A stretch of DNA of 64,000 bases, taken from Candidatus Nitrosymbiomonas proteolyticus (GTDB lineage Bacteria > Armatimonadota > Fimbriimonadia > Fimbriimonadales > Fimbriimonadaceae). Shown in pieces: positions 15,806 to 37,279 of the stretch. Within the stretch, counting starts at the first letter, position 1. Each line of letters opens with the position of its first letter. Under the pieces are notes generated by a model. That model was not told the origin of the DNA. It searched no databases and was given only the letters and a program-made list of their open reading frames with translations. Where the stretch lies: contig AP021858.1 of assembly GCA_017347465.1 (NCBI GenBank), positions 2,126,472 through 2,190,471 of the forward strand, written 5' to 3'. The translations under genes were made by a program, and so were the position numbers.

Positions 15806-16204
15806 ATGGGCAACAACAAGAAGGAAGGGCCGTTTTCGGGGACGAGGCCGATCCCCGCGCCTCCGCCACCGCCGCCAACCTACGCAAAGGTCACGGCGGG
15901 CGGGAGCCTCCAGTTCACATATGAACTTGAGTGGACGCGAAGACGAGGAGTGGACCGACACATTCAGGTTCAGTGTTTCCTGCTCTTGCCGCCGCGAATT
16001 CGCAACGAGAAGTCCGTGCCGCGTGTCAGGATCGAGGACGTCGTCGAGGAGCCTACGATCCGCAAGGCTGTACCGGCCGGTTCGAAGGCGATGCCGATGG
16101 AGGTCAAGACGCGGGCTGGGCTGAAGGGGGTCCACCGCGTTCTCGTCGTGGCGACGGTAGGCAGCATCACGGGGTACCGTCTGATGAAGGTGATCGGCAA
16201 GTAG
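15806..16204 (+). CDS. Hypothetical protein with proline-rich N-terminus
   Basis: 132 residues from ATG 15806, with GGGGGAG about six bases upstream. After a PIPAPPPPPPTY linker the remaining 100 residues alternate hydrophobic and charged residues in a beta-rich pattern (SLQFTYELEWTRRRGVDRHI, VHRVLVVATVGSITGY). No family was recognised. It is the last gene before the first repeat array. Confidence 0.6.
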   Translation: MGNNKKEGPFSGTRPIPAPPPPPPTYAKVTAGGSLQFTYELEWTRRRGVDRHIQVQCFLLLPPRIRNEKSVPRVRIEDVVEEPTIRKAVPAGSKAMPMEVKTRAGLKGVHRVLVVATVGSITGYRLMKVIGK

Positions 16205-16242
16205 CGGCCCCAATGCGTCGCGCAGGCGGAGGCTCGGCCTTA

Positions 16243-16662
16243 GGAACGCATGCGTCTCGCATGGCCCCTGCAAAGTGCGCCCACGTGTTCTCGGCAACAG
16301 GAACGCATGCGTCTCGCGTGGCCCCGGCCGAGTGCGCCCACGTGTTCTCGGCAACAGGAACGCATGCGTCTCGCATGGCCCCTGCAAAGTGCGCCCACGT
16401 GTTCTCGGCAACAGGAACGCATGCGTCTCGCATGGCCCCTGCAAAGTGCGCCCCCGTGGCCTCGGCCCCAAGAACGCATGCGTCTCGCATGGCCCCCGCC
16501 GAGTGCGCCCCCGTAGCCTCGGCCCCAGGAACGCGTGCGTCTCGCATGGCCCCTGCAAAGTGCGCCCCCGTAGCCTCGGCTCCAAGAACGCATGCGTCTC
16601 GCATGGCCCCTGCAGAGTGCGCCCCCGTAGCCTCGGCCCCAGGAACGCATGCGTCTCGCCCC
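16243..16662 (+). repeat. Tandem repeat array 1: eight headers, 57-bp period
   Basis: The header RGAACGCATGCGTCTCGC recurs at 16243, 16300, 16357, 16414, 16471, 16528, 16585 and 16642, exactly every 57 bases; a degenerate copy precedes it at about 16212. Read on the minus strand each unit is a 34-bp conserved block, beginning GGCCATGCGAGACGCATGCG and ending near TCCTGGGGCCGAG, plus a 23-bp interval that varies slightly between units. Because 57 is divisible by three, several long reading frames cross the array on both strands; I regard these as artefacts. The same 34-bp block builds array 2 in the opposite orientation. Confidence 0.93.
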
Positions 16663-16678
16663 CGCACGGAGGCCGACC

Positions 16679-17200
16679 GTGAGTGACACGTCCCACGGAT
16701 GGCTGGTTCTCAGAGGCGCAAGCGGCAACAACCTGAGGAGGATCGACGTCGCCATCCCCCGAGGCCTCTTCACCTGCGTCACCGGCGTCTCCGGCAGCGG
16801 CAAATCCACCCTCGTCCAGGACACCCTCTTCCCCCGACTCATGTACGAGGTCTACGGCACCCGCACCACCTGGGCCGCGCACGAATCGCTCGAGGGCTTC
16901 GAGGGCATCGACAAGATCATCGACATCGACCAGTCCCCCATCGGGCGCACCCCAAGGTCCAACCCCGCCACCTACACCGGCACCTTCGACATGATCCGCG
17001 AGCTCTTCGCCATGACCCCCGACGCCAAAATGCGCGGCTATAAGAACGGCCGCTTCAGCTTCAACGTCAAGGGCGGGCGGTGCGAGGCGTGCAAGGGCGA
17101 CGGCATCATCAAGATCGAGATGCACTTCCTGCCGGACGTCTACGTGCCGTGCGAGGTCTGCAAGGGCCGGCGCAAATCAACGGGTTGCGCCGACCCATAA
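16679..17200 (+). pseudogene. Half-uvrA copy 1, 3'-truncated
   Basis: Begins with GTG 16679 behind a good GGAGG ribosome-binding site and encodes [20 protein letters not shown], the same beginning as the complete copy at 19830. It includes the Walker A ([10 protein letters not shown]), the [16 protein letters not shown] segment and both CxxC pairs of the UvrA zinc module. At about 17173 the match to copy 2 stops in the middle of the codon run after CEVCKGRR; eight unrelated codons and a stop follow. It lacks the ABC signature, Walker B and H-loop, so it cannot be an active ATPase. The array lies immediately upstream and cassette A immediately downstream. Confidence 0.85.
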
Positions 17201-17222
17201 GACATCAAAGCCCCATCTATCC

Positions 17223-17561
17223 TTAAGGGATTGGCTCCCGCGATCCATCGCAATTGCAGCAGTAGCCTGTCGCATTATCACTGATTTGGCTACCCTTGCA
17301 AGGGTACATGGTCTCGCCCACCAAATAGTAGCCTCTTTGGCGCACCTTCTGGTGAATCTTCCACGAGTAACTACCGGAATGGCCGCAAGCGTCATTGGCC
17401 ATGCAGTAAGTGACCGTGCATTCGCCGACGATCGTCGCACCCTGGACGCAGTCTAGGTTAGGACAATCGCTAAACTCGTCGAAAGTATAGCAGGGCGTGG
17501 GCGGAAGCGCAAGCGCTATCACTGCCAACGCTGCGATGAGCACGGTTAAGAAGTGTTTCAT
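17223..17561 (-). CDS. Secreted cysteine-rich small protein
   Basis: 112 residues from ATG 17561 with AAGGAG nine bases upstream. A signal peptide (MKHFLTVLIAALAVIALALP) is followed by a compact domain with ten cysteines (SDCPNLDC, GECTVTYC, NDACG, YPCKG, GYCCNCDG), suggesting several disulfides. No known family was recognised. It is the last gene of a five-gene minus-strand operon that also encodes a pseudopilin and two thioredoxin-fold proteins, so it may be the exported substrate that those proteins serve. Confidence 0.7.
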   Translation of the reverse strand: MKHFLTVLIAALAVIALALPPTPCYTFDEFSDCPNLDCVQGATIVGECTVTYCMANDACGHSGSYSWKIHQKVRQRGYYLVGETMYPCKGSQISDNATGYCCNCDGSREPIP

Positions 17562-17601
17562 TGCTTCATCTCCTTCGGGTTTCCCCGACTGTTTGCGTCA
17601 G

Positions 17602-18180
17602 TTACAGATTGCTGAAACCGTCTGCTTTAGGGCACGGCCAACGAGAGTCCTTGACGGCGCCCAACTTGATAAAATCGAGCAACCGCTGAAGTGGTACTCG
17701 AGAAACTTGGCCGTCCACTCGGATGAGAAGGAAAAACGGATTTCCGCTTTTCGCCGCGTTCAACGTTGAAGCATGATTGCTGTCTATGACCGCGGGCCAC
17801 TCTGGGCCACGAATGGTCTGGCACTCTTTTTTCTCGGGAACGCCAGGAATCTCATCCGGCCACCACATGTGCATGATATAGTCGCAGTTCCGACTGTGTG
17901 TCCCTCCTGCGCCGCCGACCGGACAGTGCAAGGCAGTACCTCCGAGGTATGGGGCGAATCCGGGCCAACCTTGGCAGTCGAGCGGATACTCTCCATTGTC
18001 CTCTCGATAGACCATCATCGCAGCATAAATCTGGCGCAGGTTTGAGATACAAACTGTCGACTTTGCTGAATCAACAGACTTCAGCGCGGCGCTCATAATC
18101 AGCGCAGCAAGGATAACGATAATGCCGATCGAAACAAGCACCTCCACAAGTGTGAAGGCGTGCTTTTTGCGATTGATCAT
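17602..18180 (-). CDS. Pseudopilin (prepilin-type N-terminal signal)
   Basis: 192 residues from ATG 18180. NRKKHAFTLVEVLVSIGIIV is a prepilin cleavage site and hydrophobic helix, followed by SAKSTVCISNLRQIYAAMMV, the usual start of the globular part. It differs from the pseudopilin at 11698 throughout the globular domain, which is rich in Cys, Trp and Pro. Its ATG overlaps the stop of the upstream membrane-protein gene (ATGA), implying translational coupling inside cassette A. Confidence 0.85.
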   Translation of the reverse strand: MINRKKHAFTLVEVLVSIGIIVILAALIMSAALKSVDSAKSTVCISNLRQIYAAMMVYREDNGEYPLDCQGWPGFAPYLGGTALHCPVGGAGGTHSRNCDYIMHMWWPDEIPGVPEKKECQTIRGPEWPAVIDSNHASTLNAAKSGNPFFLLIRVDGQVSRVPLQRLLDFIKLGAVKDSRWPCPKADGFSNL

Positions 18181-18788
18181 CGGTGGATCTCCCCAAGAAT
18201 GAAGACGATGGAAAGAAAAAGCGATGTGACGAGGATGCTAATGTGGCGCGTCGGAGCAAAGACGCTGTCCGTAAAGCCAACGGCATTTTCTCTCCAGTTC
18301 AGGAAGCCGAAAAACCACAACCCACCCAAGGATCCAATCGCCAGTAGACGAGATGATCTCCAGTCAGCCGCGCCCTTGATCCGATTGACTGCCCATGCGA
18401 GAATCGACCCAGACAATGTACCAGCGATCAGCATCCGTAGCCACCCGTTAGTGGGCTCCTGATAGAAATCAAACGTGCCGTACCAGATCACGCTTCCGCG
18501 AAAGTGGGTAGCGCAATAGTACGCTACAGCAACACCGACGGCGAGGAAAAGGGAACTCCTTGCGCCCTGCCTCCCCGCAACGTATGAGGAAACCCCGAAA
18601 AACCCAAGCAGGAGCCAAGCGTGATAAAAGGCCACGGGAACCTGTATCACATGTAGTACCTCTTGACCGGCCCAGAAGCGTAAGGATTCGACGGCCTGAA
18701 AGGAGACAAGGGGAAGACCCAGTGCAACTGCAAGAATGCGAGCGATATCCGGCCACTCGAATCGCTCTTGAAGCAAACTATCGTCCAT
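18177..18788 (-). CDS. Multi-pass membrane protein
   Basis: 203 residues from ATG 18788. About five or six hydrophobic segments are visible (ILAVALGLPLVSFQAV, VAFYHAWLLLGFFGVSSYV, LFLAVGVAVAYYC, MLIAGTLSGSILAWAV, LLAIGSLGGLWFFGF, ISILVTSLFLSIVFILG). No family was recognised. The ATG lies 11 bases inside the end of the preceding thioredoxin-like gene. Earlier in-frame codons are possible but would place the start deep in that gene. Confidence 0.68.
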   Translation of the reverse strand: MDDSLLQERFEWPDIARILAVALGLPLVSFQAVESLRFWAGQEVLHVIQVPVAFYHAWLLLGFFGVSSYVAGRQGARSSLFLAVGVAVAYYCATHFRGSVIWYGTFDFYQEPTNGWLRMLIAGTLSGSILAWAVNRIKGAADWRSSRLLAIGSLGGLWFFGFLNWRENAVGFTDSVFAPTRHISILVTSLFLSIVFILGEIHR

Positions 18789-19326
18789 CGTGCTTTCCCC
18801 CGGACGCAATTTCAAGGAGTCGATAACAGCTTTCTTCCAGAGATTCAGAGGGCTCTTGGCAATACAGAAGCGAACCGTTCGCGCCGTAGAAGTACAGGCG
18901 AGGAACAAAATAGAGGTTCAGGCGCTTGCGAACGTCATCTGTGGCTCGAATGGTGGTCAGCCCGCCTATTGTTGCGGTCTCGCCGGCTCCGGACCGATTC
19001 TCCCCCTCGGCTACCAAGAGCACCCACTGGCAGCGTAAGGGCTGGAGTATTCGTCGCGTTTGCTCGACGCGAAAAACGGTGCATGCGGTGCAATCGGAAA
19101 GGGCCAAGACCAATGTCGGTCCCGCGGTGTTCGCATTGGGTGTCATATCAATGGGGCATCGGCTTCCAAGTCTCGGGTCCTTCTTCGCGGACGCAGTCCC
19201 AAGGAACACTCGGTTTTCGGCGCGATAGGAGTGTTGGACAATAGGTACGACAAACGAGTTCACTCCCAACACAAGCACAAGGACCAGCGCGGTTAGGTTC
19301 ACCGATGTCAGCGAAAGCGAACTCAC
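18778..19326 (-). CDS. Membrane-anchored thioredoxin-fold protein with DCTAC motif
   Basis: 182 residues from GTG 19326, which overlaps the TGA of the previous gene (GTGA). An N-terminal anchor (LTALVLVLVLGVNSFVVPIV) is followed by a thioredoxin-like domain: LVLALSDCTACTVFRVEQTR contains the CxxC-like DCTAC redox centre and FVPRLYFYGANG contains the cis-Pro region and strand. The likely role is disulfide exchange or reduction outside the membrane. It resembles the accessory thioredoxin-like proteins often placed next to secreted Cys-rich products. Confidence 0.7.
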   Translation of the reverse strand: MSSLSLTSVNLTALVLVLVLGVNSFVVPIVQHSYRAENRVFLGTASAKKDPRLGSRCPIDMTPNANTAGPTLVLALSDCTACTVFRVEQTRRILQPLRCQWVLLVAEGENRSGAGETATIGGLTTIRATDDVRKRLNLYFVPRLYFYGANGSLLYCQEPSESLEESCYRLLEIASGGKHDGR

Positions 19327-19730
19327 TTCCCACCTCCGTGTTCTATGGCTCTGAATAGGTCAGCTAGGGCACTGTCATCCAACGGATGTCCGTTTCCATA
19401 GACAGCTCGACCGGCCGACGCGTCAAAGCAAATGGTCGGACAGGCATTGACTCCAAATTCACTCGAGATCTTGCCATCGAGGTCCGCGATCGGCGATTCT
19501 CGGAGTCTATGTGCCTTGGCAAACTCTCGTGAATCCCCGACGCTGCCCCTGAAGTAGAGGACACACCGAGCAAGCCGATCAGGGCCGATTTGATCGGCAG
19601 CTATCGCACATTCCGGGCACCCGCAGAAGAAGATGACGGGTTTCGAACTGCGGACCCCACACGAGAGTGTCGCCGAGAAAAAGACGGCAACCACGATTCG
19701 TACAAGCCAGATGCGGAACGCTGAGTACAT
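19323..19730 (-). CDS. Exported thioredoxin-like protein with CGCPEC motif
   Basis: 135 residues from ATG 19730 with GGAG nine bases upstream. The signal or lipobox-like segment ([15 protein letters not shown]) is followed by [20 protein letters not shown], a CxCxxC redox site on a thioredoxin strand-helix, and [12 protein letters not shown] in the cis-Pro position. It is the first gene of the cassette A operon; its promoter would be in the 100 bases that separate it from the divergent half-uvrA gene. The two thioredoxin-fold proteins may form a relay. Confidence 0.7.
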
Positions 19731-19829
19731 GGCGATTCTCCGCTGCAGCTATTGTATCACACAATTGACGAAATCGTAAGGGATTTCCTTCTGTTTCACT
19801 CAGCCTGCATCAGCTATACTCCTGTCCAC

Positions 19830-20849
19830 ATGTCGGACTCCTCGTCCAACGGCTGGATTGTGCTTCGCGGAGCCTCAGGCAATAACCTGAGATCCATCGA
19901 CGTCGCCATCCCTCGCGGCCTCTTCACCTGCGTCACCGGCGTCTCCGGCTCCGGCAAATCCACCCTCGTCCAGGACACCCTCTTCCCCCGACTCATGTAC
20001 GAGGTCTACGGCACCCGCACCACCTGGGCCGCGCACGAATCGCTCGAAGGATTCGAAGGCATCGACAAGGTCATCGACATCGACCAGTCCCCCATCGGGC
20101 GAACCCCCCGCAGCAACCCGGCCACCTACACCGGCACCTTCGACATGGTCCGCGAGCTGTTCGCCATGACCCCCGACGCCAAGATCCGAGGCTACAAGAA
20201 CGGCCGCTTCAGCTTCAACGTCAAGGGCGGGCGGTGCGAGGCGTGCAAGGGCGACGGCATCATCAAGATCGAGATGCACTTCCTGCCGGACGTCTACGTG
20301 CCGTGCGAGGTCTGCAAGGGCCGGCGCTACAACCGCGAGACGCTGGAGGTGCGCTACAAGGGCAAGAACATCGCCGACGTGCTGGCGATGACGGTCGAGG
20401 AGGGCGAGGAGTTCTTCAGCGCGATCCCGAAGATCCACCGCAAGATGGCGACGCTGCTGGACGTGGGGCTGGGCTACATCAAGCTGGGCCAGCCGGCGAC
20501 CACGCTCTCGGGCGGCGAGGCGCAAAGGGTGAAGCTCGCGGAGGAGCTCTCGAAGCGCTCGACCGGAAGGACGCTCTACATCCTCGACGAGCCGACGACG
20601 GGCTTGCATTTCGAGGACGTGCGGCGCCTGCTCGCCGTGCTGCACCGGCTGGTGGACCAGGGGAACACGATGATCGTCATCGAGCACAACCTGGACGTGA
20701 TCAAAACGGCGGACTGGGTGATCGACCTCGGCCCTGAGGGCGGCACCGGCGGCGGCAAGGTGGTGGCGATGGGGACGCCGGAAGACGTGGCGAAAGTCGA
20801 AGGGAGTTGGACGGGGAGGTATCTGAGGGGCGTGTTGGCACGGCAGTAA
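19830..20849 (+). CDS. Free-standing C-terminal half of UvrA (complete ABC-II module)
   Basis: 339 residues from ATG 19830 ([19 protein letters not shown]). It contains every element of the second ATPase of UvrA: Walker [11 protein letters not shown] at 37-46, [16 protein letters not shown], zinc cysteines 136/139 and 159/162, the signature [11 protein letters not shown] near 227, Walker B ending in Asp253-Glu254, and H-loop His286. The first ATPase, the UvrB-binding domain and the DNA-binding insertion are absent. Upstream sequence shows no UvrA homology, and copy 1 begins at the same residue, so this looks like a real half gene, not a random cut. No strong ribosome-binding site precedes it. 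Whether it acts in excision repair or pairs with another half is unknown. Confidence 0.85.
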
Positions 20850-20921
20850 TTGAGGAATTTCAGGCAGTTTTGAGATTTCCTGTTGCAGTATTACAGTGGA
20901 CTCCCTCTCTTGAAGTGCCGG

Positions 20922-20938
20922 TCGCGGAAACGCGAGCG
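20922..20938 (+). repeat. Short hairpin repeat with GNRA loop, copy a
   Basis: TCGCGGAAACGCGA (20922-20935) can form a five-base-pair stem with a GAAA tetraloop. The longer motif CGCGGAAACGCGAGCG (20923-20938) recurs with one change at 21073. It lies about 25 bases upstream of the small acidic gene. Confidence 0.5.
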
Positions 20939-20962
20939 AGACCAAAATGGAGGAACAGAATC

Positions 20963-21070
20963 GTGAGCGATTGGGATATCGAACCCAGCTCGAGCGGAAC
21001 GGAGCCGAACGGCGACGGCACCCCGGAGAGCAATTCGGACGACTACTCGGAAGACAGCGACGCGGGTTGA
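20963..21070 (+). CDS. Small acidic peptide, 35 residues
   Basis: GTG 20963 follows GGAGGAACAGAATC, a strong ribosome-binding site. The product starts VSDWDIEPSSSGTEPN and ends DDYSEDSDAG: unstructured, strongly acidic, without cysteines or membrane segment. It precedes the sigma/anti-sigma-like/CHAT operon. A second tiny acidic protein lies on the far side of that operon, so both may belong to it. Reading it as a real gene rests on the ribosome-binding site and position only. Confidence 0.5.
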   Translation: MSDWDIEPSSSGTEPNGDGTPESNSDDYSEDSDAG

Positions 21071-21072
21071 GC

Positions 21073-21088
21073 CGCGGAGACGCGAGCG
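21073..21088 (+). repeat. Short hairpin repeat with GNRA loop, copy b
   Basis: CGCGGAGACGCGAGCG starts two bases after the stop of the small acidic gene and 150 bases after copy a. CGCG pairs with CGCG around a GAGA tetraloop. Copies a and b each stand ahead of a gene in this operon, so a shared regulatory or processing role is possible. Confidence 0.5.
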
Positions 21089-21161
21089 GTGGAGGACCGC
21101 AAAATATAGTGGTTCTCCCCACTCCAAAAGCCCGAACTTGGGGCGACCGGAGGCAACGAAG

Positions 21162-21719
21162 TTGACGAAGCAGAAGTCAGAAGCAGAGTGTTTTTCAAGT
21201 GAGGTAGAGCTATTACGGCCAAAATTGCTGGCCTACGCTCGTCGCTTGAAAGAATCCCTATTGAAATGGAGGTCAGATTTGGAGCCAGAAGATCTGGTTC
21301 AAGAAGCCCTGACAAGAGGATTTGAGTCGATCTCGACGTTTGATGGGAGATCAAGCCTCATGACCTGGCTCCAAAGAATCATGATCCACGTCAGCCTTGA
21401 ACCGCTAAAACGAAAGGAATCGAAGTATGACTATGATCGCACAGACGAAGCGGTGAGCAATATCTCAGTCCATTCCGTACTTGACGATCCTCATCGAGCA
21501 TTTTGTGCCCATATGAGATCGGACCTTCTGCTCGATGCCATACGACAAATGACCCCTGAAGAGCGTACCGCATTCTTCGCCACCGAGAATGAGATGATCG
21601 GGTTGACCTACGAGCAGGCTGCTGAGCAGTTGAACTGGACAATTGAAACTGTCAAGTCCCGCGTGTCAAGCGCAAGAAGGAGGGTGCGAACAAGCATTCC
21701 CAAGGAGTGGGTGCCATGA
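21162..21719 (+). CDS. ECF-type RNA polymerase sigma factor
   Basis: 185 residues from TTG 21162, chosen because GGAGG lies eight bases upstream; the TTG at 21138 has no such site. Region 2 is recognisable (LEPEDLVQEALTRGFESIST, then FDGRSSLMTWLQRIMIH), as is region 4 (MTPEERTAFFATENEMIGLT, YEQAAEQLNWTIETVKSRVS with the helix-turn-helix). Its stop overlaps the ATG of the next gene (ATGA). It is the first of three translationally coupled genes ending in a CHAT protease, so it is probably the output of that system. Its codon usage is AT-richer than the flanking uvrA pieces. Confidence 0.88.
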   Translation: MTKQKSEAECFSSEVELLRPKLLAYARRLKESLLKWRSDLEPEDLVQEALTRGFESISTFDGRSSLMTWLQRIMIHVSLEPLKRKESKYDYDRTDEAVSNISVHSVLDDPHRAFCAHMRSDLLLDAIRQMTPEERTAFFATENEMIGLTYEQAAEQLNWTIETVKSRVSSARRRVRTSIPKEWVP

Positions 21720-22387
21720 GGAACAATAATAGACAAACACAGCGCGTTTCAAGAGCAGAGATAAGTGTTCTTCAACTCGCTCTCGAATCAGAAGCCCTCC
21801 TGTCAGCATATCTGCTTGGCGAGGCGAACGAAGAAGAGAGGTCGCAAGTTGAAGCAGCAATGGCCCAAGATCCATCAATCGCCTCAACGATTGAGGAGTT
21901 GAAGCATGCATATGAGGAAGAGACTGGTGCCGCTGGAGAAGCCAGGGGATCTCTACTTACACATCTGGCAGCGATTGTAAACAGCGTCGGGCTTCCCCTC
22001 AGGCTATTACAAGCCAACGTACAAATGCCCTCGCCCCGAGTCGCAACTCTCAGCGGATCGTCGCAAGCTGTCGTAGGAATTGAACTTCCTGGCGGGATCG
22101 CCAAGTTATTCTCGTCCGGTAGCGCAACCCTAAAGATCACGCCAGAAAACCGGTTCACAAAGGCCCAGCTCTTTTGGCCATCTGTCGCGGAGGGCTTGGA
22201 GTCGGACTGCGAGATTGATGCAATCATCCAACGGACATCTTCATCGGGATCGGGAAAGCCCAAGATAGTCGTGAAGAACGTATTGCCAGGAAGCTGGTCA
22301 CGGAACGTTACAGTTCCTGGCCACGAGACAGGCGACAAATGGACGTTGACCGTTGAAGCGAGAGAACGCAATGGGCTTGACGCTTGA
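21716..22387 (+). CDS. Anti-sigma-factor-like protein, candidate CHAT substrate
   Basis: 223 residues from ATG 21716. Residues about 20-70 (LLSAYLLGEANEEERSQVEA, then AMAQDPSIASTIEELKHAYE) match the short helical N-terminus of FecR/RskA-type anti-sigma factors, but without the zinc-binding HxxxC motif. There is no transmembrane helix, unlike most such factors. A central hydrophobic stretch (LLTHLAAIVNSVGLPLRLLQ) is followed by a beta-rich domain (VVGIELPGGIAKLF, GDKWTLTVEARERN). It overlaps the sigma gene by four bases and the CHAT gene by 17. Sigma binding, and cleavage by the CHAT protease, are inferences from order and from known sigma/anti-sigma pairs. Confidence 0.65.
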   Translation: MRNNNRQTQRVSRAEISVLQLALESEALLSAYLLGEANEEERSQVEAAMAQDPSIASTIEELKHAYEEETGAAGEARGSLLTHLAAIVNSVGLPLRLLQANVQMPSPRVATLSGSSQAVVGIELPGGIAKLFSSGSATLKITPENRFTKAQLFWPSVAEGLESDCEIDAIIQRTSSSGSGKPKIVVKNVLPGSWSRNVTVPGHETGDKWTLTVEARERNGLDA

Positions 22388-25316
22388 AGAAGGGACGCAA
22401 TGCCTTGAGGCTATTGCTCGCTGTATCCGAACTAACAGTTCCCTCAGCCCTGACCTTCAGAAGAACTTGCGTCGCCTGTTTGACGACAGCGATCGTCCAA
22501 ACACACCTGCGCCAGAGACCATCGTGTATAGGTGGATCGAGCGCAGTGTGGGTGACCCCGCAGCCACGGCCCTTGATCGGCAGAATCCATTTCAGCCTGA
22601 TGAGAAAGACTTGCTGGCCCGATATCGTGTTATAGAGACAATCTGGAGGGAATTTGCGCAATGCTGGAGTGCCCGCCAACGTGCCGAAATCCTGCTCGCA
22701 CAAGGAACCCTCCTGGCTGCAATATCCCACGCACGGCCCACAGAACACGATAGCCTCGCAAACCAGGCTGTCATCGCCCTTAAGTCTGGTAGAGAGCTGC
22801 TTCCTCAGACTCCAGAATTCGAGACACGGAGATGTCACGTCTTTTGGCTTGAAGCGTCTCTTCTCGAAAAGCTAGCCCGATGGGAGAGTGTAAGCCATGC
22901 CCTCGCAATGGCCCTAACTGTAGATCCCATCGAAGCATCGAACGGACTCTACTTGGGAGTCGCCTCTCGCTTCTTTGCCCTTCCTGAGGAGTATCAATCA
23001 AGACTCCGAGATCAGATTGCCGCCCAGCTTTACCTTGCATACGTTTGGATTTGCCCAACCGAAGACATCCAGGAGAGAAAAAGGCGATCTATAACTGAGG
23101 ATGGAATCGAGACCTCGGATGGGAGCAAGGAACAAAGAAGTTCAGAGGGGCTTGAAGACGGCTTGTTCTGGTCTCCAAAGGCCGCAGACCGGCTAGGTCT
23201 GATGGCGATGTTGACTGCGTGCGGGGGACATGAGTTGATTCAAGCTGCGGTGAGAATCGAGCTTGCCAAGCTATACGAACATAGGGACTCCCTGCCCGGG
23301 TTTCATCGCGTTACCCGCAAAGATGAATTGTGTAGACACCTAGAGTCTCGGTCGGTAGAAACGGATGCGAGCCTACCATCGGCAGCCCTCGAGGAGCCCG
23401 TGGCTGGTGATGCTTCCAACACCCCTGAGGTGGAGGAAGCGATCGCCCTCTTATCTCGGGGTACCCATGAGCTATTCGCAGTTCACACAAAGGAAGCACT
23501 CCAAACCCTGAGCTCAGCGGCAGCAGTGGCCGCCCAATCGGGCAGGTTAAGCCTGTTGCTAAAGATAATGAGTAGGCTTAGAAGGCTCCGCTGGTACATT
23601 GAAGCGGGAGGGCCCCATCACGGAAGAAGTGAACACATGCTCAATGGCTTGGCCCAAGATTGGTTCAAGACTTGCTTCGGACCCAAAGTACTGGGCTTCT
23701 ATGAAGCCCGTAAGAGTGACCCTGGGTACTTGCCAGGGCCGCTTGACGATTGGGGCGAGGATACGGAATCCTGGCAGCACGCCCCGGTACATCGGAAAGA
23801 GGCACAAGACGCAGTAGCCGGATTGCTCATGGAAGAGGCCGGTGGAGAGGAAGCCGCGTTCATCTTTCGGACATTTTTGAGGCAGAATACGAACATTACT
23901 GCTGAGATAGCGCATTGGATTCCCGACGTCGACGCCTTCCTCATGCGGCTCGACGCAGTCAACGCGAGGCTCGGAGCTCGACACATCGCTATGATGATGT
24001 CGGACAACCTTGCTGGATACGATCGTGGACCGTGGCTAAGGTACTTGCTACGCATTCACGAGGAACAACTCCAGGGCTGCAGTAATCCCTTGATAAGGAA
24101 CAGACTGCTTTCTGATCTTGACGAACTCCTGGTGCACTATGCGGCTTCCGAAAATGATGCGAATCTACAGTCAGTAGTAGAGTGGTCCAGACGAGTGAAG
24201 GGCCTACATCTGGCATCGTGCAGTTCTGACGCCCAGGTCGGAATGAAGCCCAGTATAAATGAGCAGCGCGTCGAGGCAATGGTCGAGCCTCCTTCGCTTG
24301 AACGAAGTGTAATAATTCTCGACTGGATAGTTGGCAAGGATCAATCGGTACTCGTGAGCCAGGTGGGAGCCGATGTTCGCAGGTGGATTCTGTCTACTAG
24401 CAGATCGACCATAAACGAGGCATTGAAGAAACTGAACCGCATGTCCAAGCCTGGAAGAGCCGGTCCTGGACTTAGCCAAATCGAGGATCTAGTGACATCT
24501 TATCGGGAGCAGGCAACCGCTCCTCTGCTCGATAAGTTGCTCAGTCACTGGAAGAACATCTCGGCTACACTCTTGCCGCCAGATGCTTTCCTTCTTGCAG
24601 CTAATTCCTCAACAGCACTCCTTTGTCCGCATGGCGTGCTTCGCCAACTTCCCCTTCACTGTCTGGTTTCTGAGTCATGTACGCCGCTTTTTATGGCGCT
24701 CCACACTACATATGTTGCGGTTCCAAAAGACCCTAGTGTCGCCAGGCCGAAAACAAGGATGGTTGCCGCCATTGCGAACACTGAGCTGGAGTCCGATGTC
24801 CGCGACAAGTTGATGGCTGACATTCTGAAGACGGTCGAACCTGTCGAAGTATGGGCGCGACGCCTTTTTGAGGCCGAACTCTCAATCATTTTTGAACATG
24901 GCTACTACGAAAGCGACCGTCCAGCATCAACGCGCTTGTGTCTCCAGAAGGGAGCGCGACTCTATACCACTGATGTTGGGGCGATCGCAAAGGACCGCCT
25001 TCGTGGTAAGACCATATGGGTGTTTGCGTGCGAGTCGGGCAAGGGCACTTCGACGGTCCATCGCGGCAATGCACAGCAATCGGACTCCTCGCTGCTCGCG
25101 ACTTTCATAGAGTGCGGTGCAACATCTGTCCTATCTTGCCTTTGGAAAGTCGCTCCCATCAACGCGTCAAGGTTCCTTTTTCAGCTACTGGATGAGATTA
25201 CTGTCGCCGATATCGCCCAAGAATACACAGTGGCACTTCGCCGCTGCGCTGCCGTCGAATCTCACGCCATGGCTGCGATCGCCCGGGTCGGTGCTTTCGT
25301 CTGGTACGCACAATAG
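22371..25316 (+). CDS. CHAT-domain protease with long helical N-terminus
   Basis: 981 residues from ATG 22371. The first 750 residues are mostly helical with TPR-like segments (ISHARPTEHDSLANQAVIAL, ALQTLSSAAAVAAQSGRLSL). The C-terminal 230 are a CHAT caspase-fold domain: LLAANSSTALLCPHGVLRQL, the catalytic His843 in FEHGYYESD, Cys887 in VFACESGKG, then ECGATSVLSCLWKVAPINAS. Both dyad residues are present, so it is probably active. It overlaps the anti-sigma-like gene and ends at a hairpin. The arrangement recalls TPR-CHAT/Csx30/RpoE of type III-E CRISPR loci, but no CRISPR component is here. The trigger is unknown. Confidence 0.85.
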   Translation: MGLTLEEGTQCLEAIARCIRTNSSLSPDLQKNLRRLFDDSDRPNTPAPETIVYRWIERSVGDPAATALDRQNPFQPDEKDLLARYRVIETIWREFAQCWSARQRAEILLAQGTLLAAISHARPTEHDSLANQAVIALKSGRELLPQTPEFETRRCHVFWLEASLLEKLARWESVSHALAMALTVDPIEASNGLYLGVASRFFALPEEYQSRLRDQIAAQLYLAYVWICPTEDIQERKRRSITEDGIETSDGSKEQRSSEGLEDGLFWSPKAADRLGLMAMLTACGGHELIQAAVRIELAKLYEHRDSLPGFHRVTRKDELCRHLESRSVETDASLPSAALEEPVAGDASNTPEVEEAIALLSRGTHELFAVHTKEALQTLSSAAAVAAQSGRLSLLLKIMSRLRRLRWYIEAGGPHHGRSEHMLNGLAQDWFKTCFGPKVLGFYEARKSDPGYLPGPLDDWGEDTESWQHAPVHRKEAQDAVAGLLMEEAGGEEAAFIFRTFLRQNTNITAEIAHWIPDVDAFLMRLDAVNARLGARHIAMMMSDNLAGYDRGPWLRYLLRIHEEQLQGCSNPLIRNRLLSDLDELLVHYAASENDANLQSVVEWSRRVKGLHLASCSSDAQVGMKPSINEQRVEAMVEPPSLERSVIILDWIVGKDQSVLVSQVGADVRRWILSTSRSTINEALKKLNRMSKPGRAGPGLSQIEDLVTSYREQATAPLLDKLLSHWKNISATLLPPDAFLLAANSSTALLCPHGVLRQLPLHCLVSESCTPLFMALHTTYVAVPKDPSVARPKTRMVAAIANTELESDVRDKLMADILKTVEPVEVWARRLFEAELSIIFEHGYYESDRPASTRLCLQKGARLYTTDVGAIAKDRLRGKTIWVFACESGKGTSTVHRGNAQQSDSSLLATFIECGATSVLSCLWKVAPINASRFLFQLLDEITVADIAQEYTVALRRCAAVESHAMAAIARVGAFVWYAQ

Positions 25317-25320
25317 AATG

Positions 25321-25350
25321 GGAAGGCTGACCCCGCTGGCCCAGCCTTCC
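25321..25350. terminator. Perfect hairpin after the CHAT gene
   Basis: GGAAGGCTG and CAGCCTTCC form a nine-base-pair perfect stem with a 12-base loop, five bases after the CHAT stop. There is no long T-run on the plus strand. It could end both this operon and the minus-strand small gene at 25392. Confidence 0.65.
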
Positions 25351-25391
25351 GTTGGATCGAGGCGATGCGTGCAGCATCGCAACCATGACTC

Positions 25392-25469
25392 TTACTCGCC
25401 GTCAGCTTCCGCTTCGGCTTCCATCAGCTCTTCGCGCTCTTCCCACAGAGCATCTTCGTCGTCGTACAT
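25392..25469 (-). CDS. Tiny acidic protein, 25 residues
   Basis: ATG 25469 follows AAGGAGGCGAGCAAAT, an excellent ribosome-binding site. The product MYDDEDALWEEREELMEAEA ends shortly after and is almost entirely acidic, likely a single helix. It has no known family. It converges on the CHAT gene and shares the hairpin at 25321. Confidence 0.55.
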   Translation of the reverse strand: MYDDEDALWEEREELMEAEAEADGE

Positions 25470-25573
25470 ATTTGCTCGCCTCCTTGTTCCTTCTCGGCTT
25501 GTCCTTTTTGGGGGCCGGCATTTATGAAGTGGGACCATGAACCGTGAATGCAACAGCTCAACAAGAAGATTTC

Positions 25574-25612
25574 CAAAAAGAAGCGGCGGGCCTGTAAGGT
25601 CTGGCCCACCGC
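25574..25612 (-). terminator. Terminator of the zinc-ribbon gene
   Basis: On the minus strand GCGGTGGGCC...GGCCCGCCGC pairs with one mismatch and a ten-base loop (25584-25612), followed by TTCTTTTTGG. It lies 18 bases after the stop of the gene at 25630. Confidence 0.6.
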
Positions 25613-25629
25613 GCGGCTCGGTGGTCGTG

Positions 25630-25761
25630 TTAATCGTAGGGTAGAAGGTCACCGCCGCAACAAGGGCACCCGGCGGGATGCGGCTTGCACGTGTAGATGG
25701 CCAGGTCATCGATCGGGGTCCCGCATTCGGGACACGTGATTTCCGGATAGTATTCATCCAT
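25630..25761 (-). CDS. Small zinc-ribbon protein, 43 residues
   Basis: ATG 25761 follows AAAGGAGG with good spacing. [20 protein letters not shown] contains the first CxxC knuckle; [19 protein letters not shown] contains the second (CPCC). Such mini zinc ribbons bind one Zn and usually mediate protein or nucleic-acid contacts. It lies between the CHAT operon and half-uvrA copy 3, on the opposite strand, and has its own terminator. Confidence 0.7.
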
Positions 25762-25985
25762 TGTCGAGCCTCCTTTGGCTCGGAGCCCTCGTGGACTCCC
25801 ACTCCCTAAGAGGTCTCGCATTTGCGATTTGCAACAGAGGAACAAGCGAGGGAGGACGCTACTATCGGGGCAATTATCTTGCCGACAGCGGCTGCCGACT
25901 CTCACGGGACGTAAGCGGAGTTCTATGGCCATTCTGATCGGTAGGGTTCCCACTCAAGTGGGTCAGGCTCATAGTCGGGTGGATC

Positions 25986-26215
25986 GCCGGGTGCTGCACC
26001 GCCCAGTGGACCAGGGCAACACGATGATCGTGATCGAGCACAACCTGGATGTCATCAAAACCGCCGACTGGGTCATTGATTTGGGGCCCGAAGGGGGGAA
26101 CGGAGGCGGGAAAGTGGTCGCTATGGGCACGCCGGAGGAAGTGGCGGAGGTCGAAGGAAGCTGGACGGGGAGGTATTTGAGGGGGGTGTTGGCAAATCCC
26201 CGGACAGAGTGCTAA
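25986..26215 (+). pseudogene. Half-uvrA copy 3, only the last 75 codons
   Basis: Homology to the complete copy begins near 25990 within the leucine-rich stretch before [20 protein letters not shown], and runs to RYLRGVLA and a stop at 26213. It retains the H-loop His but none of the other ATPase motifs. By eye it differs at many synonymous positions from copies 2 and 4, so it was not copied recently from either. Its left edge coincides with that of the fragment at 30379. Confidence 0.85.
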
Positions 26216-26431
26216 TTCAGAGAGGAGAAGCCCGCATCGTTTGAAACTGATGCGTCGTCCGTTCTAGAGCCAAACGAACTAGGGCCCCTGAGAGCCCAAA
26301 TCTCAGTCCAATCGAGCGGGCTATCTCATGGTCAGATGGTTAGACGTTGGACCGGGGCGAAAATTCTCGCCCACTGGAAAAAAGGTTGGACTCCAGGGCC
26401 CAGTTCGGGAGGCTGAACGGAGGAAAACCTC
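26216..26431. other. Short intergenic region before cassette C
   Basis: 216 bases. A small hairpin (GGGGCGAAAATTCTCGCCC, about 26355-26373) is the only structure I see. It could belong to the leader of the following gene, but I cannot assign it. Confidence 0.3.
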
Positions 26432-26743
26432 ATGAACGCTCAAGCGAGCACGAAACAATCAATCGTCAATGACATCCTCACCTACATGAAGGAATGTGGC
26501 GGGAGTGCGCGAGAGTGGTACGTTGGGATCGCGACGAATGCGACAAATCGCCTCTTCAGCGATCACGGCGTCAACGAGTCCAACGGAGCTTGGATCTACC
26601 GAACGGCCGATTCGAGCGACGATGCCCGAGAAATCGAGCAGTACTTCATCAACCGTGTCGGAACGGACGGCGGAAGCGGTGGCGGTGACGGGTTCACCAA
26701 AATGGTGTACGCGTACAAGAAATCCACGGCTTCGAGGCCGTAG
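26432..26743 (+). CDS. Small GIY-YIG-like hypothetical protein
   Basis: 103 residues from ATG 26432, with GGAGG ten bases upstream. WYVGIATNATNRLFSDHGVN followed by AREIEQYFINRVGTDGG and a C-terminal FTKMVYAYKK looks like the second half of a GIY-YIG nuclease fold, but the GIY half is not obvious. The family is widespread and uncharacterised as far as I know. It lies beside a restriction-modification pair and has an 11-bp terminator. Confidence 0.65.
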   Translation: MNAQASTKQSIVNDILTYMKECGGSAREWYVGIATNATNRLFSDHGVNESNGAWIYRTADSSDDAREIEQYFINRVGTDGGSGGGDGFTKMVYAYKKSTASRP

Positions 26744-26770
26744 CCGGGCCGCATCGGACTTTTCAGTTAA

Positions 26771-26796
26771 CGAGGCGACCTCAGCAGGTCGCCTCG
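26771..26796. terminator. Strong hairpin terminator
   Basis: CGAGGCGACCT (26771-26781) and AGGTCGCCTCG (26786-26796) form an 11-base-pair perfect stem with a CAGC loop, followed by GCTTTCATCTTT. It sits between the convergent small GIY-YIG-like gene and the restriction nuclease gene. Confidence 0.85.
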
Positions 26797-26807
26797 GCTT
26801 TCATCTT

Positions 26808-27571
26808 TCAAATCCGCGCCCCATATTCATAGGTCTGGCTCTCTTTGTACAGAATCACGTGGCTGGGAAACAGCGTTGCTTGCCATCCGGCTGGCAGGGA
26901 AGAGAGGAGCAAGCGCAATATCTCGCGAACGGTCATTGGGGTTTCGGTAACGGTCACTTCTGAGGAATCCAGGTCAGAATGCGGCCGCTCGTATCGAAAG
27001 GTGTACGAGAGAGACTCCTTAACCAAGGCGAGAGCCTGAGACGCGGAATAGCTCCCCGGCGGCAAAACGCTCGTTTCAAAGTCGATACTGATGGGAAACG
27101 TCGCGTCGAATCCCTCGGGCTTGACGTTTGTCTTCTCGCGATTCCTGCCAGGATCATTCGATCCGAACCCGCTTCCATTCCATGAAGGGACCTGGCCAGC
27201 TCGCTTGTAATGCTTGATCAGCGCAGTTTCCAAGTCCATCGCCGTGAAAACAAGAACTTGGACGGCCTTGAAGCTCACTCGGCTCTTTTGAAGCTTCGGC
27301 CGATCCGAAATTCGCTTCAAGTGGCGAGAAAGGCGCCTTCGCAGACCAGCTTCGGCGTCGGTCTTCCAATGTAAACGAGTTCCCCGTCCAAGAAGAGCTG
27401 ATAGACACCTTGCGCATCGGGGATGAGCGAAAGCTGATCCGCCGAGAGCAGGCCATCCCCCATTCTGTCGAGGACCTTCACAAGCTGCTCAAGCAAGGCA
27501 CCGGGCAGATCGAATTCAAACGAAACGAACCCCTGAATCGCGCTGTTACCTGGAAATAGGTGCTCGGGCAC
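26808..27571 (-). pseudogene. GIY-YIG type II restriction endonuclease, Eco29kI-like, frameshifted
   Basis: The first part starts at GTG 27571, sharing its G with the TAG of the methyltransferase, and encodes AQGVYQLFLDGELVYIG. At about 27363-27366 (GGAAGACC on the minus strand) the frame shifts. Adding one A gives VYIGKTDAEAGLRRRLSRHL, joined in register to KRISDRPKLQKSRVSFKAVQ and ALIKHY, then NGSGFGSNDPGRN. This is the GIY-YIG, conserved Arg, His and Glu order, with a GFG-DPGR element like Eco29kI. As sequenced, the second half cannot be translated from the first start. Either the nuclease is dead, leaving an orphan methylase, or one base is missing. Confidence 0.75.
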
Positions 27572-28944
27572 TATCTCTGTCCTCGCCGCAATACGACGGC
27601 GCACTCATAGAGCCGGGCGTTCGACTCGCTTCCCCTTCGAACTGTAGACTTCGTAATGCTCGCGCCGACGCGCTTGTTGCGAAGTTCGATCGTGTTGACG
27701 TGGTCGAAGCCTAGTCCTCGCGCGATCTTGACTGTGAATTCGTCCACCTTGACTTCGTGACCTTGGATGATTGAGTTTCCGATGACAATGACCGTCGTGC
27801 CGTTTGTCGCGAGGGTCTTGCTCAGAACCTCCAAAAAACGGTAGGTGTCGTTCAGATAACTGGCGACGTAATTGGCCCAGCCGGGTCCACCATACGGCCC
27901 CTTTTCAACGCGCGTTTGGCGCATGGAATCAAGCAACGTGCTGGCCTCCGCGTCGTCGAACGAGAGGGAGATTGGTTCGCGCTGTCTGACAGTTTGCCAG
28001 TACTTCCCAACGTTCTCCTCCTCAAGTGCGCGTAGGTCCCCGCGAGAAGTGACAAGTTCGAGCCAGAAAAGCTGAGGCCGGGTACTCCGAACGTAATGGT
28101 AGTTGTTCATGTACGGAGGCGAGGTAACCACGAGGTCGATCGAAGTGTTCGGCAACACTTCCCCAGCTCGCATGAAGCTCGTCGGATGCACCTGCCAGTC
28201 TGCCCTTCGCGCCGACTCGGATACGCAATTCTGGAGCTCCGCTACGTCGTCGGCCATGCTTCTCAGTTTGTTGAGAAGCATTTCATGTACTGGCGCATTC
28301 TCGATCAGAGCTTTCCCGGCACCTGGCCTCGAACAGAGGCTGGGCTCGTAGGTGTAGTTCGAGAACCGAACCATGACCGCGCCGAAGGCAAGCTTGAAGA
28401 GATCAGATATGGCCTCGTCTTCAATGGTGGAGAGGAAGGCAAGGAAGCCGTGAACCTGTCGCTCAACATCTGGACTAAAAAACGGGATGCGCGTCGCGAA
28501 TTCTGACGGCGCTTTGCCGCGCCCAAACTTCCCTCCGTTGACGCTATGATCGGCGTACTTCGCCAGCGTCAGATACAGCTGGGAGGCATCAATCGACATC
28601 GCTTCCAGCTTCGCACGACTCGCAAGGACCGCATACGGATTGATCTCAAATCCGACGGAGCGATGACCGTCCAGGCGAGCCGAGACAAGCGTCGTGCCAA
28701 CCCCGGCAAACGGGTCCAGGATGGTCCGTCGCCTGCCGTCGCTGGGGAGATAGGTACGAATGCAATCGTGAACGAAAGCCGAGGAGAACCCAGCGATCCA
28801 AGGCACCCAACCGTGGATCGGCACGCCCCGGTTTCCCATGAATGCCGGATCGGAGAGTCGAGCTTCCCTGAGCTCCAGAGTCAATTGCGGCTCGTGTACC
28901 GTTGCTGGCTCCTGCGGTTGAACGACCGGGTATCTGGTGACCAT
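27571..28944 (-). CDS. DNA (N4-cytosine or N6-adenine) methyltransferase of a type II R-M system
   Basis: 457 residues from ATG 28944, with GGAGAG six bases upstream. Motif I is [20 protein letters not shown] at about residue 73-92, followed by the acidic GFEINPYAV. Motif [18 protein letters not shown], comes after about 200 residues. Motif I ahead of a distant SPPY is the alpha- or gamma-like arrangement. The product methylates an amino group of a specific site to protect host DNA from the adjacent GIY-YIG nuclease. The recognition sequence cannot be read from the protein. Translational coupling (TAGTG) links the two genes. A promoter at 29005-29033 drives the pair. Confidence 0.88.
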
Positions 28945-29004
28945 GAACTCTCCTGCTCCAACGGACGATTCTGGACCCGCTTTTGGCTCCCGCCGATTTC
29001 CCAC

Positions 29005-29033
29005 ACTATAGCATACTCGCTTCTACTTGTCCA
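29005..29033 (-). promoter_or_regulatory. Promoter of the restriction-modification operon
   Basis: On the minus strand TGGACA (29033-29028) and TATAGT (29010-29005) are separated by 17 bases, about 60 bases upstream of the methyltransferase ATG. The -35 box ends only three bases from where uvrA homology of copy 4 begins, so the cassette carries its own promoter right up to the junction. Confidence 0.6.
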
Positions 29034-29035
29034 CC

Positions 29036-29708
29036 CCAAGATCCGAGGCTGCAAGAACGGCCGATTCAGCTTCAACGTCAAGGGCGGGCGGTGCGAGGCG
29101 TGCAAGGGCGACGGCATCATCAAGATCGAAATGCACTTCCTGCCGGACGTCTACGTGCCGTGCGAGGTCTGCAAGGGCCGGCGCTACAACCGCGAGACGC
29201 TGGAGGTGCGCTACAAGGGCAAGAACATCGCCGAGGTGCTCCAGATGACGGTGGAGGAGGGGACCGAGTTCTTCAGCGCGATCCCGAAGATCCACCGCAA
29301 GATGGCGACGCTGCTGGACGTGGGGCTGGGCTACATCAAGCTCGGCCAGCCGGCGACGACGCTCTCCGGCGGCGAGGCGCAAAGGGTGAAGCTGGCGGAG
29401 GAGCTCTCGAAGCGCTCGACCGGAAGGACGCTCTATATTCTCGACGAACCGACGACGGGCCTGCATTTCGAAGATGTAAAGAACCTGCTCGGGGTCCTGC
29501 ACCGCCTGGTGGACCAGGGCAACACCATGATCGTCATCGAGCACAATCTCGATGTCATCAAGACGGCAGACTGGGTGATTGACTTAGGGCCCGAGGGAGG
29601 AAATGGGGGAGGGCAGGTCGTGGCGATGGGGACTCCGGAGGAAGTCGCGGCAGTCGAAGGCAGCTGGACGGGACGGTATTTGAGGGGGGTGTGCTGGCGA
29701 GTCGTTGA
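29036..29708 (+). pseudogene. Half-uvrA copy 4, 5'-truncated and frameshifted near the end
   Basis: Homology starts at CCAAGATCCGAGGC (29036), corresponding to about residue 113 of the complete copy, and continues through both CxxC pairs, [33 protein letters not shown] and [14 protein letters not shown]. There is no start codon and no Walker A. Near the end, at the G6 run 29684-29689, the frame leaves the expected RGVLA; correcting by one base (or removing two) gives RGVLASR and a stop at 29706. The first 190 bases differ from copy 2 at only three positions by eye, while the 3' third is clearly divergent, so the copies are mosaic. Confidence 0.85.
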
Positions 29709-29749
29709 TAAAAGTGAACCATTCCACCGGCCAGAGACACTTACCAAAC

Positions 29750-30355
29750 ATGGCAGCCGGAATACTAAGGAACTCGTGCTTGGCGGTCATCCTATCGCTC
29801 TTGTGCGCCAGCGCTCAAGCCAAGGTCGCAACGATAAGCTTGAACGCTCTGGCCAAGCTCAGCGATTTGATCCTGGTAGCTGAAGTCGAACGAGTGGAAT
29901 TGAGGGCGGGAGTGAGGGTTGCCCGGATCAAGACGATCCAGTTCGTCAAAGGATCTGCGGAGTGCCCGATTGCCTTCGTTGCAGAACGTACTTGGACCTG
30001 CGATCTCAGCACCGCGATTGCAGGCGAGCGCGTGCTCCTCTACCTATCCTCGATAGGCAAAGTAAAGGGTCGAACTATGAACGGGCAGGACCTTGGCGCA
30101 GCGCAAGCGGCCTGCAAGAAGGACGGAATCCAACTGTACACCCTCACTCATAGTGGAAGGGGCAGAATCCCGTTGAGCTTGAACAAGGGCCAATGGGTAG
30201 CCGGAGTGACGCCGGGAGAGGGAAGAGGTCCCGGCCTGAATGCCAATCTCTACGTCCCGAAGCCAATCCCGACGTTGCAGACCTCGCCTGGCCACAAGGC
30301 CGTCTCACTCGCCGAGCTTGTCCGGCGGTCCGCCACGGTGCGGAATCGGCAATAG
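29750..30355 (+). CDS. Secreted hypothetical protein
   Basis: 201 residues from ATG 29750 ([20 protein letters not shown]), a clear signal peptide ending SAQAK. The mature part has beta-rich sequence ([33 protein letters not shown]) and two cysteines. The [12 protein letters not shown] ... IKTIQFVKG pattern resembles secreted proteins that begin with a small all-beta domain, but no family is certain. It is the only gene in cassette D, between uvrA copies 4 and 5, and its first ATG lies 42 bases after the copy 4 stop. Confidence 0.65.
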
Positions 30356-30378
30356 TATGGGCATGGGTCTCAACTCCA

Positions 30379-30409
30379 TGCACCGCCCAGTGGACCAGGG
30401 GAACACGAT
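30379..30409 (+). pseudogene. Half-uvrA copy 5, a 31-bp remnant
   Basis: 31 bases from TGCACCGCCC to AACACGAT match the stretch encoding HRLVDQGNT of the complete gene. It shares CGCCCAGTGG with copy 3, where copies 2 and 4 read CGGCTGGTGG and CGCCTGGTGG. Left and right flanks show no further uvrA homology. Too short to be more than a scar. Confidence 0.7.
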
Positions 30410-30625
30410 TCCCGGCAAGCCGGGATCTCCGCTGCGCTCCGAGATCGTGATCAAGAATGCCGATAAGCCATTGCTTCCGCTCCTCGGCTCAAGAGTCTTA
30501 ACCGGTTCTCAACCTCGGAATCGAGTCCTCTACGCTGCCGGGTCCGACCGCCCCGCCGCCAGGCCCTTGATTAAGAAAAAGTAAAGTCTCCGGCAGGGAT
30601 CGCAATGCGGCGGCTGTTTCTCGCG

Positions 30626-30757
30626 TATAATTCCCCTGAGACCCCCGAAGGGGAGTAGCGCCTGCAAAATGCAGAGCCTCGGTCGTCAGTTCGCTCGAAA
30701 GAGCCGGCCCGGCAGGAAGCGCAAGACCTTCACCGCAAGGCGCGTGAAGGTTTTTTT
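30626..30757 (+). promoter_or_regulatory. yybP-ykoY (Mn2+) riboswitch with intrinsic terminator
   Basis: A TATAAT box lies at 30626. The leader then contains the hallmark GAAGGGGAGTAGCGCC, a middle domain with GGTCGTCAG and AGAGCCGGCCCGGCAGG, then GCAAGACC. The terminator follows: ACCTTCAC (30726-30733) pairs with GTGAAGGT (30744-30751), ending in seven T. This is the order of the yybP-ykoY aptamer, which senses Mn2+ and commonly controls TerC/Alx and MntP-type membrane proteins. It is placed 30 bases before an amphi-Trp gene and upstream of terC, so excess Mn2+ would be expected to relieve termination. Confidence 0.82.
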
Positions 30758-30788
30758 GTTGCCGGGCGGCGGGTTTTGGAGGACGATA

Positions 30789-31079
30789 ATGAGTACGACT
30801 GAACCCATGACGGCGCGCGATGTCGAGCGCGCTTTGACCAGCACCGAGTTTGTGGCCGCGCTCCGCAGGCTCGCCGAAGCGATCGAACAGGGCATCCCCT
30901 TCGAGATTGAGGTGGAGGGCGAGAATGTTCAGGCTCCGATTGAGGCGCACTTCAGCATCGAGCACGAGCGCTCCGGCGCCGACGAGGAACTCGAATTCCA
31001 ACTCAGGTGGTCCCTTGTTGCCACTTCCGAACCCCAGGACGAGCAGGAAACGGAGGAGGTCGCCGATGCGCTGTCCTAA
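30789..31079 (+). CDS. Amphi-Trp domain protein
   Basis: 96 residues from ATG 30789, with GGAGG seven bases upstream. The sequence alternates charged and aliphatic residues (FVAALRRLAEAIEQGIPFEI) and ends its conserved block with EELEFQLRWS, the characteristic amphipathic strand with Trp. Amphi-Trp proteins are small and of unknown biochemical role. It is the first gene after the riboswitch, followed by terC after a 100-base gap. Confidence 0.8.
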   Translation: MSTTEPMTARDVERALTSTEFVAALRRLAEAIEQGIPFEIEVEGENVQAPIEAHFSIEHERSGADEELEFQLRWSLVATSEPQDEQETEEVADALS

Positions 31080-36751: not shown

Positions 36752-37182
36752 AGGCGTGCGAGACGCATTCGCTCCTGGGGCCGAGTCTCCATGAGCGGTC
36801 GTGGAAGAAGGCCATGCGAGACGCATGCGCTCCCGGGGCCGAGTCTCCATGAGCGGTCGTGGAAGAAGGCCATGCGAGACGCATGCGCTCCCGGGGCCGA
36901 GTCTCCATGAGCGGTCGTGGAAGAAGGCCATGCGAGACGCATGCGCTCCTGGGGCCGAGTCTCCATGAGCGGTCGTGGAAGAAGGCCATGCGAGACGCAT
37001 GCGCTCCTGGGGCCGAGTCTCCATGAGCGGTCGTGGAAGAAGGCCATGCGAGACGCATGCGCTCCCGGGGCCGAGTCTCCATGAGCGGTCGTGGAAGAAG
37101 GCCATGCGGGACGCATGCGCTCCCGGGGCCGAGTTCCTGTCAGTGCTCATGGGAGGGGCCATGCGGGACGCATGCGCTCCTG
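36752..37182 (-). repeat. Tandem repeat array 2: eight headers, 58-bp period
   Basis: GGCCATGCGAGACGCATGCG recurs at 36810, 36868, 36926, 36984, 37042 (every 58 bases), then at 37100 and 37157 with one base changed (GCGGGACG), and as a degenerate copy at 36752. Each full unit is the 20-bp header, CTCCYGGGGCCGAG, and a 24-bp interval that is the same in almost all units (TCTCCATGAGCGG, then TCGTGGAAGAA). The unit starting at 37100 instead has a different 23-bp interval. A 58-bp period rotates the reading frame, so the long frames across it cannot encode a selected repeat protein. It uses the same 34-bp block as array 1, inverted. Confidence 0.93.
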
Positions 37183-37279
37183 GGCTTTCCGCTCATTCGG
37201 CGCGGCGCATCCCGACACGCTGAGACGGCGGCAGAATATACTTGCCAGCACACGATAAGGCGGGAGGTCGCGGCATCAA

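Follow-up and report, generated by a model that had tools for sequence, protein, structure and literature searches.

The window, the whole stretch of 64,000 nucleotides that was analysed, belongs to a genome of Candidatus Nitrosymbiomonas proteolyticus that consists of one contig of 2.81 Mb, and it contains a compact unit of three consecutive genes on the plus strand (Table 1). They encode an ECF-type sigma factor, a probable anti-sigma factor, referred to below as the middle protein, and a large CHAT protein. An earlier reading of this DNA without database searches (the sequence-only reading) had described three overlapping genes, and both overlaps were confirmed: the stop codon of the sigma gene and the start codon of the middle gene share the sequence ATGA, and the middle gene and the CHAT gene overlap by 17 bases. 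The best start of the sigma gene is the TTG at 21162, with a GGAGG 8 bases 5' of this codon. A possible small acidic reading frame precedes the sigma gene and no counterpart of it was seen upstream of the second trio described below. The two small genes behind the trio had been counted as accessory genes of the operon as well. As they are located on the minus strand in convergent orientation, each with its own Shine-Dalgarno sequence, they lie outside the operon. The zinc-ribbon-like protein encoded by one of them was not strongly matched in any of 120 related genomes.

Table 1. Features of the three-gene locus and of the surrounding island (positions refer to the window).
Feature	Position	Strand	Remarks
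uvrA C-terminal half, left border of module	19752..20849	+	TIGR00630 positions 607-924; further copies of its 3' end at 25991 and 29494
Possible 35-aa acidic ORF	20963-21070	+	GTG start, open frame, GGAGG upstream
ECF-type sigma factor, 185 aa	21162..21719	+	TTG start; longer ORF from TTG 21138 = 193 aa
Anti-sigma-like middle protein, 223 aa	21716..22387	+	ATG 21716; zinc-less helical region of anti-sigma type at the N-terminus, followed by a beta-rich C-terminal region
CHAT protein, 981 aa	22371..25316	+	ATG 22371; C-terminal separase/Csx29-like CHAT module (predicted fold) ~621-981
25-aa acidic ORF	25392..25469	-	AAGGAGG upstream of ATG
43-aa zinc-ribbon-like protein	25630..25761	-	Motifs CPECG and CPCCGG; gene preceded by AAGGAGG
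Broken uvrA 3' end, right border of module	25991..26215	+	83% identical to 20637-20840
Eco29kI-like pieces	26808-27604	-	RE_Eco29kI 0.02, below its cut-off
Methyltransferase, type II	27571-29004	-	MTase_II 2.1e-28

The product of the first gene matches Sigma70_r2 (6.5e-10) and Sigma70_r4_2 (4e-9) of Pfam and has regions 2 and 4 only, which agrees with the earlier assignment to the ECF group. Among the matches listed, its nearest sequences are only ~25-33% identical, and a search with the CHAT profile detected a CHAT gene at none of the 80 sigma-matched contig loci among these matches. The middle protein had been described as soluble, anti-sigma-like and free of a zinc motif. In line with this, the maximal Kyte-Doolittle value over 19 residues is 1.49, which leaves no strongly hydrophobic segment, and the HxxxCxxC motif is absent; the matches to anti-sigma families are sub-threshold, namely zf-HC2 of Pfam at residues 29-53 (21.5 bits compared to a cut-off of 22.2) and weak NCBIfam anti-sigma matches at residues 31-69. 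Based on these matches and on the position of the gene, the protein is probably an anti-sigma factor. The absence of zinc ligands is no objection to this assignment, because the motif is present in three and lost in three of six middle proteins from resident operons of the phylum (alignment A5), and a published survey found zinc-binding and non-zinc anti-sigma domains intermixed within groups, so that HxxxCxxC is not required of every class I anti-sigma domain (PMC7406223). Profile comparison of the middle protein with alignment A5 itself yielded no match. A single-sequence model of low confidence (pLDDT 42.9) places helices at residues 16-75 and strands after residue 120; a fold search with this model was dropped due to its poor quality.

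The CHAT protein passes the cut-off for the CHAT domain PF12770 narrowly (24.9 bits compared to 24, 0.9 bits above) and matches CHAT families only in Pfam and NCBIfam. Both residues of the dyad named in the sequence-only reading, His843 and Cys887, are in place and fall in the alignment columns in which 17 other CHAT proteins have an invariant H and C. The C-terminal module (residues 621-981) was modelled with AlphaFold2 using an alignment of 17 CHAT proteins of the phylum, which resulted in a pLDDT of 78.8 and a pTM of 0.79. Fold comparison of this model (Foldseek, VIA-align) ranked Csx29/TPR-CHAT first with Z values up to 26.9, followed by separase with Z ~24, and we therefore predict a separase/Csx29-like fold for the module (Z 24-27). 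In the predicted structure His843 and Cys887 are each positioned beside a strand end, as in the caspase fold. DdvA, titled transmembrane anti-sigma factor, is a further fold match with a Z value of 19.6.

The trio is foreign in composition, with a G+C content of 53.4% compared to 61-63% outside the island in which it is located. A comparison with a second genome of the species (G085) showed that the flanks are 92-96% matched and that positions 16885-30379 are unmatched apart from uvrA pieces. Accordingly, the accessory island that had been suggested is real and larger than stated (~16885-30379). It also proved to be a variable site holding defence genes: the strain of the window carries the methyltransferase listed in Table 1, and the matching island of G085 a Thoeris pair of ThsA (Macro) and ThsB (TIR) (L108:8792-10206, minus strand). 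The Eco29kI-like endonuclease next to the methyltransferase is distributed over two overlapping frames and is perhaps a frameshifted gene. The uvrA gene is split, as the N-terminal half (model positions 1-616, G000:C1:429480-431354) lies ~1.7 Mb apart from the C-terminal half; the same split is present in G085, and a uvrA match spanning the whole model was not found. Decaying C-terminal repeats of uvrA occur in the window at 16689-17173, 20637-20840, 25991-26194 and 29033-29697, and such pieces are scattered through the island in both genomes (also L107 and L108). Judged from the sequence, it looks as if cargo had been inserted at uvrA many times. Short direct repeats near the ends of the module (GTGGACTCCC) were considered as attachment sites and rejected, as they are too short. 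Two tandem-repeat arrays with units of 57 and 58 bases (16242-16659 and 36757-37184) flank the island; they are ~73% alike and lie on opposite strands. Rfam models matched nothing in 16000-31000.

A search of 291 genomes of the phylum identified a true, full-length homologue of the CHAT protein in one other genome (G242), which belongs to the same family, with 30% identity (z 93). The sequence-only reading had proposed to look for co-occurrence of the three genes, and around this sole homologue the order is kept: a sigma factor, a middle protein of ~273 aa and a CHAT protein of 912 aa, the middle gene and the CHAT gene overlapping by 8 bases. The sigma factor of G242 matches Sigma70_r4_2 (1.3e-8) and an ECF profile that includes the sigma factor of the window (2.2e-5), although the pairwise alignment of the two sigma factors is not significant (z 1.5). 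The two middle proteins reach a local score of 65 compared to 35 +/- 5.9 for shuffled sequences (z 5.1), a value that was reached by 2 of 1000 shuffles. The second trio is likewise low in G+C, 53.6% compared to 62-65% around it, and the same order combined with the same low G+C content supports the idea of a mobile three-gene unit. The trio is missing from the remaining 289 of the 291 genomes, G085 included. Searches of phages, plasmids, viral contigs and genome contigs revealed no close relatives of the CHAT protein, and the lack of a match in the phages, plasmids and viral contigs counts against the mobile switch proposed below. Conservation of the dyad, which had also been proposed as a check, failed: in an ungapped stretch of the alignment Glu takes the place of His843 in G242, the Cys being kept in both proteins, and these two sequences cannot tell which state of the dyad prevails. 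Therefore, proteolysis is not a fixed property of this type of CHAT protein. A large serine recombinase and a DUF499 remnant are located near the second trio, and a short reading frame behind it (L228:12986-13126, plus strand) resembles the end of another CHAT gene.

The combination of sigma factor, inhibitor and CHAT protease is known from the output arm of type III-E CRISPR systems (Csx29 (TPR-CHAT)/Csx30/CASP-sigma), in which Csx29 cuts Csx30, the inhibitor of a sigma factor (PMC10028731). Csx29 is not only the best fold match of the predicted protease module, but also shows a similar spacing of its dyad, 43 residues for H615/C658 (PMC10028731) compared to 44 for His843/Cys887. However, the CHAT protein scores 23.2 bits with NF041237, compared to a cut-off of 300 bits, and the middle protein matches no family, although the libraries may hold no Csx30 model. 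A RAMP protein or Cas7-11 (PF03787) was not matched in the genome and inspection of 17000-30000 revealed no CRISPR-like array, which together with the low NF041237 score rules out a type III-E (Craspase) identity. A cas1 gene is located ~0.6 Mb apart from the trio. Similar logic of protease, anti-sigma factor and ECF sigma factor is found in CalpL/CalpT/CalpS, in which CalpL cuts the anti-sigma factor CalpT (PMC11417357), but CalpL is a SAVED-Lon protease triggered by cyclic tetra-adenylate. In Myxococcus, the ECF sigma factor DdvS is paired with DdvA, an anti-sigma factor bearing a CHAT-like region (PDB 8rot; PMC4374960). This is a precedent in favour of the earlier interpretation, even if DdvA is one transmembrane chain and the system of the window would consist of two soluble ones. 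Taken together, the kept gene order, the recurrence of other sigma/anti-sigma-like/CHAT operons in the phylum, the predicted fold, the DdvA precedent and the variable defence-gene site speak for that interpretation, and the lack of conservation of the dyad speaks against it.

In analogy to Csx29/Csx30 and CalpL/CalpT we propose that the CHAT protein cuts the middle protein and in this way releases the sigma factor. The middle protein would bind the sigma factor via its N-terminal anti-sigma-type helices and thereby keep it off the RNA polymerase, and the CHAT protein, whose translation is coupled to that of the other two proteins on one message, may sense an intracellular signal, probably through its N-terminal part of 620 residues. 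It would then disable the anti-sigma factor, most likely by cutting with Cys887/His843, and the freed sigma factor could turn on its target genes. By analogy, cleavage of the middle protein by the CHAT protein of the window is the probable outcome. The trio shares its island with restriction-modification genes, and G085 carries Thoeris at this site, a setting that hints at a role against phages; defence is probably the function of the trio. For the complete scheme, a mobile CRISPR-free switch of three components in which the CHAT protein disables the anti-sigma factor and the sigma factor activates target genes against phages, we consider the chances to be about even. It is a more tentative idea, possible but on the whole doubtful, that the trio is a CRISPR-free mobile immune switch operated by cleavage of the inhibitor and a sibling of the kind of module that could have given rise, by recruitment, to the output arm of type III-E. 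If the scheme is true, protease-controlled release of a sigma factor is not confined to the two type III CRISPR systems for which it is known, but also occurs in a unit that stands alone and can be transferred, and the trio would offer a small expressible system for asking what a CHAT protein senses.

The replacement of His by Glu in G242, in a protein that is otherwise retained, would also fit a pseudo-protease that acts as sensor and controls the anti-sigma factor by binding, either trapping or reshaping it. DdvA, in which a single anti-sigma chain includes the CHAT-like region, points in the same direction, and the CHAT protein would be its separate-chain counterpart. Such a role seems unlikely to us, as the dyad is intact in the CHAT protein of the window and in each of the 15 sigma-linked CHAT proteins from the phylum that are aligned across it, and the Cys is kept in both homologues. 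Nevertheless, the relative without the catalytic His makes it possible to test whether a protease has become a regulator that no longer cuts. Caspase-like proteases are effectors in other defence systems, and the overlapping arrangement of the sigma, middle and CHAT genes in one operon would be compatible with a sigma factor that autoactivates this operon and a protease that cuts cell proteins and stops growth, with the middle protein restraining the system. We regard this as very unlikely, because a fixed anti-sigma-like neighbour would better suit a regulatory substrate.

Release of the sigma factor by the CHAT protein has further to be weighed against a housekeeping function in stress or envelope regulation, the trio being located in a variable island by chance. 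Resident operons of sigma factor, anti-sigma-like protein, TPR-CHAT protein and subtilase recur in the phylum (L055, L061, L068, L074 and others), also in the family of the window; they look like housekeeping regulation, which counts against our preferred explanation, and no description of them was found in the literature searched. In favour of the proposed switch, a same-strand sigma gene is located directly upstream of 17 of 41 sampled CHAT genes, compared to ~0.4 expected by chance given 23 sigma genes in a genome of 2.81 Mb, although this is not a phylum-wide rate, as the stretches were picked by hand and the family of the window is over-represented. These operons resemble the trio in gene order and domain plan, but similarity to it is limited to the CHAT core. 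They are also accompanied by a subtilase gene (seven of seven cases tested), whereas the trio lacks one and is followed by the convergent small genes. With the low G+C content and the absence from nearly all genomes of the phylum in addition, we consider a housekeeping role quite unlikely. Gene order is variable among the resident operons, as the middle gene is located 3' of the CHAT gene in L057, L060, L071 and L072.
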